Below, piece after piece: positions 1,868 through 10,469 of a stretch of DNA of 33,045 nucleotides. Every line of letters starts with the position of its first letter. Within the stretch, counting starts at the first letter, position 1. The notes under the pieces are model-generated. The model worked only from the letters and a program-made list of their open reading frames with translations, ran no database searches and was not told where the DNA came from. Source of the DNA: Hyphomicrobiales bacterium. Its GTDB lineage: Bacteria; Pseudomonadota; Alphaproteobacteria; Rhizobiales; HXMU1428-3. The stretch covers positions 1 through 33,045 of the forward strand of contig JAEPQF010000030.1 in the NCBI GenBank assembly GCA_017640685.1, written 5' to 3'. A program made the translations under genes and the position numbers.

Positions 1868-2248
1868 ATGAGCAAGAAGGCTAAAACCACAATAGATAAG
1901 AAAAAACTAACAGATGTTCTTAACGCCGCTCGAAAGAGAGATTTTTTTCAAAAAGGCAAAAAGCCAGATTTAAAAAAAGCGTGCGAATATGACATGTTAG
2001 TTTCTCGATTACTGTACCTGGAAACACTTGAGGATCTTGTAAATTCTTATCGCGTCTCATCGGCCTTAAAAGACCCTAAATTAATTGAGGAAACTAAAGT
2101 GGTAAGCTTAGATAAGTTTTGTCGTATGTATACAGCCATCTGTCAGATGCAAGCTATCAAAGATTTAGATTTAATAGATCCTGATGATTTTAACGAGATG
2201 GCTTCGGCATTTAAAAAATTACAGAAAGCAGTTAAGGAGGCCGTATGA
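1868..2248 (+). CDS. Hypothetical phage protein, early operon
   Basis: 126 residues, mostly helical and lysine-rich. The start directly abuts the previous stop (TAAATG) and is preceded by a GGGGG ribosome-binding stretch. It has no membrane segment, cysteine cluster or nucleotide-binding motif. The middle (YDMLVSRLLYLETLEDLVNSYRVSSAL) is a predicted helical bundle. It ends in an ATGA overlap with the next gene, so the two are likely co-translated. I do not recognise it. Its position between replication genes and the late-control region suggests a regulatory or replication accessory role, which is inference only. Confidence 0.72.
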   Translation: MSKKAKTTIDKKKLTDVLNAARKRDFFQKGKKPDLKKACEYDMLVSRLLYLETLEDLVNSYRVSSALKDPKLIEETKVVSLDKFCRMYTAICQMQAIKDLDLIDPDDFNEMASAFKKLQKAVKEAV

Positions 2249-2943
2249 GTGAATTCAAGGATATGGCCTTAGAGGCCCGACTAAAGAAAGTAAAAAGAGC
2301 GCAGATTGACACCACAGGAAATCATCAGTTTCGCAAGCGCGAAAATACACCTAAAATGCCCGACTTAAATGGCTTTTCAACGCCAGAAAGGCTTCAACAT
2401 ACCGGAACCGGCGTAAGCGCTGGGGAGGTTAAACCAAGACTTAGTCCTTCAATAGTAAATTCACCTATCAGGCCTAAAAACGCCCCACCTCAAGCAAGAC
2501 AGGGAGCTCTTGAACAAAACCTAGATAAACACGAGCAACATGTTTTAACCAGGTATCTAGCTGCAGCTTTAACAGTGAACGGGCGTGCTAAAGTTTCAAG
2601 CTATGATGGGGGCAGTTTATCTAAAGGTTCAAAAGCTGAGGGAGAGCTGCCCTACACAGACGAAGAACAACATATGATAGAATGGTATAGCCAAATAACG
2701 AAACGCCTACCACATCGCACGCAATGCGGTCTAAAGTTGCTGTACAAAATCTATTTAGGTGAAAGCAATGGCGTATCCCTTGATGACATAGGTCGCTCAA
2801 TGACAAGGCATGACGACAAGAAGGTGATAAAGGGCGGGTACATAACTTTCTTCAGAATGGCAGTTCAGGACATTGAATTAGCCGAGAAAACAGTTTCTCA
2901 TATTCATATTATGCGCAAACAAATCTCGAATGCTGTAAATTAA
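2245..2943 (+). CDS. Hypothetical protein in the position of a late antiterminator (Q-like by location)
   Basis: 232 residues. The N-terminal half (about 1-95) is basic, proline-rich and probably unstructured. The C-terminal half (about 95-230) is helical, with DEEQHMIEWYSQITKRLPHRTQCGLKLLYKIYLGESNGVSLDDIGRSMTRHD, which could hold a helix-turn-helix. It is the last gene of the early operon. Within 25 bp of its stop lies a strong promoter, followed by an intrinsic terminator, as Q lies directly before pR' and tR' in lambda. I do not see similarity to lambda, 21 or P22 Q/gp23 sequences, so the antiterminator role rests on position. A host-type sigma or replication accessory protein is the main alternative. 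Confidence 0.65.
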   Translation: MSEFKDMALEARLKKVKRAQIDTTGNHQFRKRENTPKMPDLNGFSTPERLQHTGTGVSAGEVKPRLSPSIVNSPIRPKNAPPQARQGALEQNLDKHEQHVLTRYLAAALTVNGRAKVSSYDGGSLSKGSKAEGELPYTDEEQHMIEWYSQITKRLPHRTQCGLKLLYKIYLGESNGVSLDDIGRSMTRHDDKKVIKGGYITFFRMAVQDIELAEKTVSHIHIMRKQISNAVN

Positions 2944-2966
2944 TTTAAAAAAAGTTGTAAATATGA

Positions 2967-2995
2967 TTGACAATAGTTTTGAAATATCGTATCAA
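2967..2995 (+). promoter_or_regulatory. Strong sigma70-type promoter, candidate phage late promoter
   Basis: A perfect -35 TTGACA (2967-2972) is followed by a 17-nt spacer and a -10 TATCAA (2990-2995). Transcription should start near 3001-3003, at the base of the first hairpin (GCCCTT 3002-3007 with AAGGGC 3037-3042). It reads into the terminator at 3070 and the large structured region beyond. Confidence 0.75.
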
Positions 2996-3069
2996 GAAAA
3001 CGCCCTTATTGCGCCTTGCGCCGGTCATGCACACTGAAGGGCATCCAATCTATTGCTTAGTTGGTGAAG

Positions 3070-3107
3070 ACCCCACTCCCTATTCATTTAGGCTGTGGGG
3101 TTTCTTA
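3070..3107 (+). terminator. Intrinsic terminator just downstream of the candidate late promoter
   Basis: Stem ACCCCAC (3070-3076) / GTGGGGT (3095-3101), with an inner stem CCTA (3079-3082) / TAGG (3089-3092), followed by TTTCTTAT. A transcript from 3001 would end after about 105 nt unless antiterminated, as at lambda tR'. Confidence 0.75.
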
Positions 3108-3110
3108 TAT

Positions 3111-4064
3111 GAACTAACACTCACTTGATCTTTATTGTGCTAACTGAAACCAAGGCGCTACAAAGCTGTCAGTTAGCACAGTTACATCAAGTGAGATTCC
3201 ATTTTTCACATTGCAAATTGCAGAAAATGCAAATTGGTTTTTAACCTCTAAGTTAAAAACTCAACCGGTTACAAAATGTAATGGTTTCAACCTTTCGGAA
3301 ATCCCGAATAGTTCAGTTATTAGGAAATACCTAAACACTCAGTTATCAACAGTTGCCTTAATTAGGCCGTACGATTTGTTAACTATTTTACTACGAATCA
3401 ATTATACACATATTCGTGTCGGGAATTCCGACAGCGGGTATACTAATTCTCAAAAAAATGTGCCGGACCCTGATGGCCGTCAGGATCCGACTTCGCATAC
3501 TAAGTTTAGCAAACTTGCCTACTTGGATAAGATCGGAAATGTGCACTGATATGAACAACATTTCCATTTCTTATCTGAGTGTAAGCTCTTACATAAACGT
3601 AGCGGATTGCTAAAGAAACCAGTCGGTGAGACATGGTTTATCTCTCTTTCTAAGGATTAAAGCTTAATTGCTTCAAACCGACGTAAAGGTACGTCGCCTG
3701 TAAAACGTTTTTACGTGAAAGATCGTGCCATTTTAGCAATCTGGCCATGACATATGATTCGCCTTTCCTTGGCAAGGATGCGGGTTGTGGAAATCACAAT
3801 TTTACACGTCTAGTGTATGCAGAGGGACGGCAAACCGACTGCAACATGCGTCCCGACACTAGATGTTACCCTCACTGTTTTGCCCATAGGGTGGGGACTA
3901 ATTCACTTAACAATTTAAACAAAGAGCTTCAGAAGCGGCGTAAAACACCTCATTTCTAGAGCGATGCATAAGGCTGCAAACCCCGCCAGCTCTATGTGAT
4001 TGCTCCGCCCTTCTGAAGACCTAAAAGAATTTACACCCCAGAAAATAAAGCATGGGGTGTAAAT
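3111..4064 (+). ncRNA. Very large structured non-coding RNA candidate (GOLLD/ROOL-like in size and setting)
   Basis: About 950 nt with no credible gene: the short open frames lack ribosome binding sites and run through stems. Paired elements in order: 3120-3129/3186-3195 enclosing 3136-3147/3169-3180; 3237-3245/3252-3260; 3263-3272/3278-3286; 3294-3298/3304-3308; 3320-3324/3330-3334; 3393-3398/3412-3417; 3417-3422/3428-3433; 3464-3473/3480-3489; 3502-3507/3511-3516; 3526-3532+3535-3542/3558-3565+3569-3575; 3580-3585/3588-3593; long-range 3603-3614/3732-3743 enclosing 3616-3621/3634-3639, 3679-3684/3691-3696 and 3700-3705/3709-3714; 3766-3770/3774-3778; 3785-3789/3795-3799; 3806-3816/3856-3866 enclosing 3824-3829/3849-3854; 3868-3872/3888-3892; 3927-3940/4006-4018; 4029-4040/4053-4064. 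Nested multi-branch architecture in a prophage before the late genes is the setting of GOLLD and ROOL RNAs. Family membership is a hypothesis. The exact ends are uncertain. Confidence 0.68.
4029..4064. terminator. Hairpin between the structured RNA and topAI, likely terminator for the - strand gene
   Basis: A perfect 12-bp stem ATTTACACCCCA (4029-4040) / TGGGGTGTAAAT (4053-4064) with a 12-nt loop. Read on the - strand it is followed by TCTTTT, so it can end the topAI transcript. On the + strand the run after it is GGTGTTTGATT, a poor terminator, which may let late transcription pass or mark the RNA's 3' end. Confidence 0.65.
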
Positions 4065-4100
4065 GGTGTTTGATTAAAGAATTGATGTGAAACTAACTGT

Positions 4101-4358
4101 TCATCTTTGATTTAATTGCGCACGCACGGATTTAATCCCTAGCTTAGATGCTTGATAGGGATTTCCTTTTTTTGAACGTATAAACCGTCGTTTTAAAAGG
4201 CGTTGAAATACATTAAGCGTGCAGTCGGTCAAAACATGACCATCACGAGTTATGCAGGTAACTTCGTGTATTTTGCCATTAGAAAGTCGCTCATAGCGGA
4301 TTTCACCGCCGAGCGCGAGTTCATGCAAAACACGTTGTTCGTGCTTTGAAATATTCAT
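4101..4358 (-). CDS. topAI: TopAI/YjhX-type toxin, DNA topoisomerase I inhibitor
   Basis: 85 residues from the internal ATG at 4358, exactly the usual length of the YjhX family (UPF0386). An open frame extends upstream to 4430, but its first 24 residues have no family counterpart. MNISKHEQRVLHELALGGEI, then the CITRDGH / LTDCTLNVFQRL segments, then KKGNPYQASKLGIKSVRAQ, align along the whole length with E. coli YjhX as I recall it. In E. coli, TopAI binds topoisomerase I, blocks relaxation of supercoils and is neutralised by the acetyltransferase-like YjhQ. No YjhQ-like gene is adjacent here. It is transcribed against the late operon, so it may be a lysogeny-expressed cargo gene or act on DNA topology during phage growth. 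Family is firm; role in this phage is inferred. Confidence 0.88.
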   Translation of the reverse strand: MNISKHEQRVLHELALGGEIRYERLSNGKIHEVTCITRDGHVLTDCTLNVFQRLLKRRFIRSKKGNPYQASKLGIKSVRAQLNQR

Positions 4359-4563
4359 TGGATTTCTCGATTTTATGAAAGCGCAATTGTACGAACACTC
4401 AGCGAATAACTTGAGGGTTCTTTCTGTCATTGTTCCTATTGCTTTATCGCTAGAAACGAGCGCTAGGCCCGGGACTCTTTCATAAAATCTCCATAGATGA
4501 GGCTAGGTGCCTACTTACACTCTAAAAATAGAGTTGTTAGGAGAAGTCGTCAATATAAAATAT

Positions 4564-4602: not shown

Positions 4603-5217
4603 TTATATTTTTTCGTAAAGAAACAGCCCATAGTTAATAAACAAAAGCGCTAATGTCCAATAAATGAATGACATAAAAAGGGGCAATTGTTTTAAGGTTT
4701 GTAATGCAAATCTTTTATTTTCTTTGAAGTGTTCGGGGTTATCTTTATCAGTCACCCAGGCCGCTATTTGCCATTTATTAATGACATTAAATCTATGAAA
4801 AATGCTTTTATGTTGAAGTAGCAATAAGACGCTTAAAGCGAAAAGAAATTGAATTACAATTACTGGCCAAAGCAGGCTTAAAAATAAGAAGATCGGCGAA
4901 AGCAAAATAACAACAATGATCAACGTAATAACGCTGATATCTGTCTTAGAGGCCTTGTTTACAGTCAGTGATCTTATCGCAGCCCCAAAGACTATAAAGC
5001 CAAGCACCATATAATCTTTGATGTATATAGGTGCTTTGAAATTAAATAATTCCTCTAGCCAACCAAAGAGAAAATTCCAAACAGCTCTAGTTATATCTGT
5101 GTAAGCTGACAGGATAAAAGCGAAGTCTTCCTGGATAGTTACCAGGCCCTTGAAGAGAGATATTAAACCAATAGCCGCAAATATAGACATTAGGTTGTTT
5201 GTAATAGTTTTGCTCAA
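4603..5217 (-). CDS. Polytopic membrane protein, unknown function (cargo gene)
   Basis: 204 residues with about four or five hydrophobic helices: roughly residues 10-30, 68-85, 95-140 (one or two spans) and 180-200. The start is TTG at 5217, five bases after a strong GGGGAG ribosome binding site; no ATG is near. Between the last spans is a soluble loop (NKWQIAAWVTDKDNPEHFKENKRFALQTLKQ). It has no transporter, kinase or protease motif that I recognise. It runs opposite to the late genes and diverges from the gene at 5313. Reverse-strand membrane genes in this position are often expressed in the lysogen (superinfection exclusion, conversion), but nothing here proves that. Confidence 0.75.
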   Translation of the reverse strand: MSKTITNNLMSIFAAIGLISLFKGLVTIQEDFAFILSAYTDITRAVWNFLFGWLEELFNFKAPIYIKDYMVLGFIVFGAAIRSLTVNKASKTDISVITLIIVVILLSPIFLFLSLLWPVIVIQFLFALSVLLLLQHKSIFHRFNVINKWQIAAWVTDKDNPEHFKENKRFALQTLKQLPLFMSFIYWTLALLFINYGLFLYEKI

Positions 5218-9620: not shown

Positions 9621-10469
9621 ATGACTAACGAGAATGACGAATTTGACAGTGTTTTTAATGAAGAAACTAACCTTGATTTAAGCGGCCAAGAAGATGGACC
9701 TCGTAATGAGGAGCATCATGTGACGCATGAGCCTGAAAACAGTCAAGAGACTGATGAGGGCGAACTGGATCAAGAAAAACAAACCTCAGAAGAGAGCACG
9801 GAAAAAGACGACAATCCTAAGACAGTTCCAATCGCTGCACTGCATGAGGAACGTGATGCAAGAAAGGCATTGAAAAGTGAAGTGGGAGAGTTGCAAGCTC
9901 AACTCCAAGAGATGGCAGCAGCCCAACAACAACTAATGCAGCACTTGCAAACTCAACCTCAGCAAAACACACCTGAACAGCATCAGTTTGTTGATCCACT
10001 GGATGATCCCAGAGGCTACCGTGACAACATCACTAACCAAGTCCAGCAAATGATTAGCCCTATCCAAGAACAGGTACAGGTTAATCAAATTCAAAATAGA
10101 GAGGCACAATCATTTTATGCCGCTCAAGCTGAATTTGGGCAAGAAGTGGTGCAGCAGGCAGTTAAGGCTGCTCATGATGCTGGTTTATCGCAAGACTTTC
10201 GTTTCAACTCAAATGATCCAGTTGGTGATTGTGTCAAATGGCACAAACAACAATTACTCATTCAAGAAACAGGCGGAGACCTTGAAAGCTATGTGTCGAA
10301 AATAAAGGCAGAGGCTAAGGCTGAAGCCTTAGCAGAGCAACAGCAAAATGCTAATGCGGGACAGGTGTCTAAAGGCAACATTCCACCATCTTTAAATAAG
10401 CAAACTAACGCCGGTGGCGTTGAAGCTTTTGTTTCAGAAGATGATTTTTTTAATAACATATTTAAATAA
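9621..10469 (+). CDS. Scaffolding protein
   Basis: 282 residues from ATG 9621, chosen because GGAG lies 10 bases upstream. An open frame continues to 9576, but that part overlaps the leader structure. The N-terminal 75 residues are strongly acidic and low-complexity. VPIAALHEERDARKALKSEVGELQAQLQEM (about 78-107), a conserved phage scaffold segment, begins a coiled coil rich in glutamine (to about 165). The gene lies between portal and coat, the scaffold position in P22 (gp8). It directs coat assembly around the portal and leaves before DNA enters. No protease motif is seen. Assignment is firm by composition, motif and position. Confidence 0.85.
   Translation: MTNENDEFDSVFNEETNLDLSGQEDGPRNEEHHVTHEPENSQETDEGELDQEKQTSEESTEKDDNPKTVPIAALHEERDARKALKSEVGELQAQLQEMAAAQQQLMQHLQTQPQQNTPEQHQFVDPLDDPRGYRDNITNQVQQMISPIQEQVQVNQIQNREAQSFYAAQAEFGQEVVQQAVKAAHDAGLSQDFRFNSNDPVGDCVKWHKQQLLIQETGGDLESYVSKIKAEAKAEALAEQQQNANAGQVSKGNIPPSLNKQTNAGGVEAFVSEDDFFNNIFK

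Follow-up and report, generated by a model that had tools for sequence, protein, structure and literature searches.

We propose, with about even confidence, that positions 3111-4070 of the DNA analysed here form the untranslated late-operon leader of a P22-like phage, built as a mosaic of separable modules. Pairing of the RNA type on the plus strand, compensatory changes, the mosaic make-up, a conserved promoter arrangement and the gene order are all directly observed. The DNA (hereafter the window) is a whole contig of 33,045 nt from a 3.5-Mb Hyphomicrobiales genome; the host of the phage is a marine bacterium. An earlier note, made from the sequence alone, had seen in this place a structured RNA region without a credible gene at the early/late junction, and both the excess of folding and the compensatory changes in homologues bear out such a region, apparently non-coding and on the plus strand.

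The leader is preceded by a DnaB-type helicase, a replication initiation protein, small genes and P0001. It is followed by two minus-strand frames (4101-4430, YjhX-like, and 4603-5217, without a match). Further downstream come a 123-aa protein with no match in the phages collection, the small and large terminase subunits, a P22-like portal, the major head protein, a head closure protein and an endolysin. The YjhX-like frame codes for a putative toxin (PF09857, E 7.7e-36) and runs antisense, with the structured leader on one side of it and the terminase genes on the other. Inside the stretch the only frames are of 65, 70 and 112 aa, and homologues of its module M6 differ by a 1-nt indel, which rejects conserved coding in M6; the absence of a credible gene, asserted before, is thus upheld.

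Leaders were compared all-versus-all between the window and L007 (from G004), L008 (G001), L009 (G006), L017 (OFTM323), L010, L011, L019 and L020. The last four are viral contigs, L009 and L017 are cut at their own start, and the named related contigs belong to Hyphomicrobiales MAGs: Methyloligella sp. DHS20C07, Hyphomicrobiaceae bacterium IP29b_bin.21 and Hyphomicrobiales bacterium OFTM323. No described leader of such a kind was recognisable in the literature searched, which comprised open-licence papers only.

Table 1 Features of the late junction (positions in the window)
Feature	Position	Strand	Basis
P0001 (232 aa), the last early gene and a candidate Q21-like late antiterminator	2245-2943	+	predicted fold, weak scores
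Candidate late promoter, TTGACA-N17-TATCAA	2967-2995	+	same arrangement in 9 of 9 leaders, by eye
TATTGCGCC stretch, candidate sigma-dependent pause element (putative role)	3007-3015	+	TGCG similarly placed in 8 of 9 leaders
M2, terminator-like hairpin with tail TTTCTTATAT	3069-3110	+	fold; related stretches in L007, L017, L019
Two inverted microvirus origin-like copies in a long hairpin, probably a DNA feature	3120-3195		BLAST; CTTGAT positions
Strong hairpin	3459-3499		terminator-like site on minus strand, 3491-3462
M4, double-stem hairpin	3515-3605	+	fold z −3.4; 77 nt alike in L020 (74% identity)
Domain closed by a 12-pair helix	3603-3743	+	fold; homologue search empty
M6, two stem-loops with invariant core CAGAGGGACGGCAAACCGACTG	3807-3901	+	alignment A4, pair counts
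M7, long bulged hairpin with compensatory changes	3926-4018	+	hand alignment, M7 model
12-pair hairpin, 3' end of the structured stretch	4029-4064	+	stem count

On the plus strand, the minimum free energy of 3111-4070 is −301.2 kcal/mol, against −228.2 ± 7.1 kcal/mol in 20 shuffles (z −10.4); the minus strand folds well too (z −8.9, 20 shuffles). The two lowest z-scores among 150-nt segments of the window are those starting at 3901 (z −5.5) and 3451 (z −5.1), and the 210 segments outside the region have a mean z of −0.38, a standard deviation of 1.1 and a minimum of −4.3. Segment 3751-3900, over the best conserved module M6, is of no unusual stability (z −1.3). Elsewhere, folding exceeded that of the downstream DNA at p<0.05 in three of five other leaders (L008, L019, L020); L007 (p 0.22) and L010 (p 0.099) fell short of significance.

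Perfect inverted repeats of at least 9 bp, counted with loops of up to 150 nt, number six in the region. Among 300 dinucleotide shuffles their mean was 0.56 and their highest count 3, and each of 28 other 954-nt pieces of the window holds 0-2. Stems of at least eight Watson-Crick pairs, with spans up to 160 nt, number 10 against 0-9 in 30 other pieces of the window: the region is barely the highest, so that the excess is one of long perfect stems more than of stem number. Of the more than twenty inverted repeats announced earlier, the surplus of perfect ones stands, but stems of this length amount to only 10. The four helices that had been singled out are present where they had been placed, each with a G-U pair, a bulge or an inner loop; the long-range closing attributed to them is weaker than stated, the domains being local and the largest 3603-3743. 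On the minus strand, 3491-3462 forms a terminator-like 12-pair hairpin followed by a T-run, and the leader may also be transcribed antisense.

One of these helices, 3120-3195, exists as claimed but is probably a feature of the DNA, formed by two inverted copies of a microvirus origin-like element; having this separate explanation, it is not counted here as RNA evidence. An 85-nt BLAST query matched 128 phage records (best E 9e-6). Among the 40 matches listed, apparently all carry microvirus-type names, and the four whose taxonomy was inspected are Microviridae; there, the element is intergenic by annotation or reaches two bases into a gene, and in two of the four it adjoins the internal scaffolding gene. 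CTTGAT occurs at 3124-3129 on the plus strand and at 3191-3186 on the minus strand, the two elements facing each other. Around this hexamer the minus copy shares 27 of 30 nt with L040 and L041, and 15 of 30 with phiX174; in the last 24 of these 30 nt, two core letters included, 10 match phiX174, a value reached by 6.6% of shuffles. The CTTGA nick core is that of the annotated phiX174 origin. The link to the gokushovirus-type element is firm, and that to phiX174 rests on the core and the annotation. Unlike the microvirus records, the window has two inverted copies, in a tailed phage, and lacks the stem that flanks CTTGAT there. Eight-letter strings from the helix recur in four of ten other loci, in none of them in the leader. 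A search for Rep with one microvirus query in 8 genomes of the genus, run without a positive control, gave an empty answer that the tool itself rates as uninformative.

The stretch had been taken for a single RNA of about 950 nt, which is not supported: related leaders share modules in differing sets. Stretches common to the window and its relatives never exceed 137 columns, and their location changes from partner to partner; among themselves, the relatives share 728 columns at 70% (L007/L017), 222 at 99.6% (L008/L020) and 245 at 73% (L008/L010). M6 is present in six of nine sources at E up to 10 (the window, L007, L008, L009, L017 and, with 33 bits, L011) and missing at the same threshold from L010, L019 and L020. 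M7 occurs in four of eleven sources (the window, L007, L017 and L019) and M10 in six of eleven (L007, L008, L010, L017, L019 and L020), L017 having had no part in building the M10 model, which finds no copy in the window. M8 is found in L008, L010, L011 and L020, and like M10 only in relatives; no module is common to all leaders. Positions shift as well, the start of M6 lying about 60 nt past the −35 hexamer in L011 and 840 nt past it in the window. In L017, a 73-aa open frame sits between M7 and M10. Directly behind the M6 of L009 lies a tRNA-Thr gene (anticodon TGT, L009:148-224).

M6 comprises 23 pairs, with 98.3% of 115 cells paired, against 34-43% when the structure is slid. Two of the 23 pairs have changes on both sides, a count reached by 126 of 500 shuffles and so not decisive; the covariation score is reached by 4 of 500. 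The M6 model found copies in 4 of 397 genomes of the order, all from the window's genus, and in 1 of 385 genomes of the class, the window's own, under stricter filters by which weak matches are lost. A pattern for the core hit one viral contig and five genome contigs, three of the latter true; the matches in L013 and L016 were rejected as chance because the rest of the motif is missing. A pattern for the 3' hairpin had no match in viral contigs, the 3-kb pieces L032 and L033 did not yield M6, and a search of the viral contigs with A8 returned only contigs already in the comparison.

Compensatory change, proposed in the earlier note as a check, was found as double changes in M6, M7, M8 and a hairpin shared by L007 and L017. 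In the outer stem of M7, all 62 cells are paired in five copies and 3 of 14 pairs have double changes; M8 has 51 of 51 cells paired in four copies, with double changes in 3 of 13 pairs; the L007/L017 hairpin has 25 of 26 cells paired and 4 of 13 such pairs. These three were aligned by hand with bulges excluded, and the sequences per module are few (4-6). The M7 model R3 found exactly the four copies from which it was built and no others; a second M7 copy in L019 and M7-like stretches in L009 and L034 were recognised by inspection only. In L034:5972-6099, an M7-like stem surrounds a fold that by eye resembles a tRNA and has a CUA-type loop; neither ARAGORN nor Rfam called it. M10 (L007:11066-11139 and five relatives) includes a run of about 50 nt that hardly varies between phages and contains a 12-nt palindrome.

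Modules M6, M7, M8 and M10 pair as RNA on the plus strand. Over the four of them, 27 G-U cells stand against 1 A-C cell on this strand, as expected for RNA pairing there; the M10 fold comes from RNAalifold on the plus strand and leans that way, and without M10 the counts are 14 to 0. The minus strand was rejected as their RNA strand on these counts. The M10 model gives the five two-sided copies 83.6-103.4 bits on the plus strand, against 17.6-23.3 bits on the opposite one. L017 retains the nearly invariant 3' part of M10 and has lost its 5' stem partner.

For the last early gene, P0001, searches of Pfam and PHROG were empty at E up to 5, the Pfam Q families and PF06530 included, and the phages collection gave no match either. 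Homologues occur in L007, L010, G005 and G007 (34% identity in the latter two), a search of the viral contigs returning one locus; none is detectable in G001, the source of L008, although M6 is present there. AlphaFold2, working from 7 sequences, modelled P0001 with a pTM of 0.55; the last 150 residues by themselves reached 0.77. Searched with Foldseek against 350,542 PDB chains, the models placed phage 21 Q first twice, with weak E-values of 0.29 and 0.30 and no match at or below 0.001. With VIA-align, Q21 entries took ranks 1-7 in one search (Z 5.9-7.1, rmsd 3.4-7.0 Å, 89-122 residues aligned), the best Z of 7.1 being one that, according to the tool, may reflect just a common arrangement; in a second search they took ranks 1-6 (Z 5.2-6.8), followed by sigma region 4. 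As the fold scores are low and the model is helical, we call P0001 Q21-like, not Q21: the predicted structure weakly supports a resemblance to this antiterminator.

Behind P0001, the succession of TTGACA, 17 nt, TA and a TGCG stretch was picked out by eye in all nine leaders with their 5' end present, with TGTG for TGCG in L007; in the window, the combined pattern occurs once on both strands taken together. P0001 is the gene just before this candidate promoter, and in G005 and G007 the same succession follows the P0001 homologues; in G007, a 668-aa frame lies in between and a T-run hairpin comes directly after the arrangement. A consensus scan listed neither the proposed plus-strand promoter nor the terminator because, by our reading of its rules, the −10 element is without the required last T and the hairpin loop is over the limit of 8; promoter-like sites were altogether rarer than in shuffles (3 against 8.0).

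The lambdoid late leader behind PR' has a sigma-dependent promoter-proximal pause; here there is only a conserved TATTGCG-like stretch. Shared with the lambdoid layout are a last early gene (there, Q), a promoter, a conserved promoter-proximal stretch, a terminator-like hairpin, an untranslated leader and late genes. Non-coding RNAs are also lodged in the leaders of Stx phages, as one study describes: sRNAs (including Stx sRNA dyads) lie between the late promoter and the lysis genes, and StxS stems from the leader between PR' and tR' (PMC7873438). The leader described here differs in its length of about 1 kb with several unrelated structured modules, in having terminase and not lysis genes downstream, and in that P0001 falls outside the Pfam Q families.

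We infer that the leader is transcribed, with pausing, read-through or antitermination, processing and action in trans. RNA polymerase would start at the promoter 2967-2995 and pause just downstream, where the Q21-like product of P0001 could load. Without this product, transcription would stop at the hairpin 3069-3110 and leave a short leader RNA; with it, polymerase would continue into the terminase and structural genes. The leader RNA (plus sense, 3111 to about 4070) would then fold into a row of independent domains and persist as a stable RNA. These domains most likely act in trans late in infection, binding or sequestering RNA or protein of the host or of a rival phage. Our best guess is that the modules are late, trans-acting RNA cassettes.

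No Rfam family matched at its cutoff in the window, nor was a tRNA found in it; at E up to 10, 2700-4500 gave five matches (E 1.3-8.1), none of them GOLLD or ROOL. In the eight related loci, the sole match at cutoff was the tRNA of L009. Permissive searches of the L007 and L008 leaders returned nothing near a cutoff, the best sub-threshold match being Phe_leader in L007 (E 0.021; 29.1 bits, where the cutoff is 55), and assignment to any Rfam family was rejected. The same goes for membership in GOLLD or ROOL, entertained in the earlier note: their covariance models have no match at cutoff in the window or in the eight relatives. As for the GOLLD-type setting, in a phage or prophage and often near tRNAs, phage genes surround the leader and a tRNA lies in L009 only.

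GOLLD is a homo-oligomeric RNA cage, and one might see in the stretch a comparable giant ornate RNA of about 950 nt, of a new class, which would fold, and might multimerise, as a single unit and combine conserved modules with a variable part. Strong folding over the entire stretch, the phage setting at the late junction and the tRNA inside one relative speak for it. Like GOLLD, the leader is phage-borne, large and ornate with a conserved and a variable part; with ROOL it shares the phage setting, the ornate structure and a tRNA nearby in one relative. GOLLD is also described as having a conserved 3' and a less conserved 5' region and as lying near tRNAs (PMC12286853). We nevertheless hold a single giant RNA to be unlikely: no module is universal, M6 being missing from three leaders and M10 from the window, the domains are local, and in L017 an open frame separates two modules. 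Nor is there an Rfam match, as for GOLLD and ROOL, or the conserved long core of GOLLD. Degraded remnants, left by decaying old genes and intergenic DNA and carrying inverted repeats by chance, would fit the high turnover between relatives; six perfect inverted repeats where 0.56 are expected, together with the compensatory changes, make this disfavoured reading highly improbable.

The put RNA of phage HK022 binds the beta' zinc-binding domain and antiterminates in cis. M6 resembles it in architecture, with two stem-loops downstream of a phage promoter, and could likewise be a cis-acting RNA that binds RNA polymerase as a nascent two-hairpin structure and lets it pass terminators. Its invariant core agrees with this, as does L011, where M6 begins some 60 nt past the −35 hexamer and has a T-run hairpin immediately before it; put RNAs are given as about 70 nt with two stem-loops, and putR as about 270 nt from its start (PMC9378689). 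We give the idea a small chance only, as M6 belongs to a late and not an early operon, lies 840 nt downstream of the −35 hexamer in the window and is lacking in L010, L019 and L020. Alternatively, much of the stretch may be a DNA-level signal, such as protein-binding palindromes or replication origins. This is likely for 3120-3195, and M10 offers a 12-nt palindrome and a 3' part kept nearly invariant in L017 despite the lost 5' partner. For the stretch as a whole it seems quite improbable, given the prevalence of G-U over A-C cells on the plus strand and the strand preference of the M10 model.

On the preferred reading of a modular late leader, phages of one Hyphomicrobiales lineage carry in their late leaders varying combinations of at least four structured RNA modules that match no Rfam family and show compensatory changes. 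If expressed, these modules would be new phage RNAs, few enough to be tractable, and their position at the late switch makes their function testable. They also illustrate how several separate cassettes in a row can look like one giant phage RNA. With its inverted microvirus origin-like elements, the leader further hints that tailed phages and single-stranded DNA phages come into contact. A bolder version, to which we assign a low probability, sees in the late leader a site of exchange at which a tailed phage gathers short trans-acting cassettes that a Q21-like switch exposes or reads out late: the new RNA families M6, M7, M8 and M10, and the inverted origin pair, which could lure away the replication protein of a competing phage with single-stranded DNA. 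A similar stretch of L007 (about 10324-10425) and L017 (about 200-300) shows by eye an apparent small minus-strand frame with a ribosome-binding-like site.
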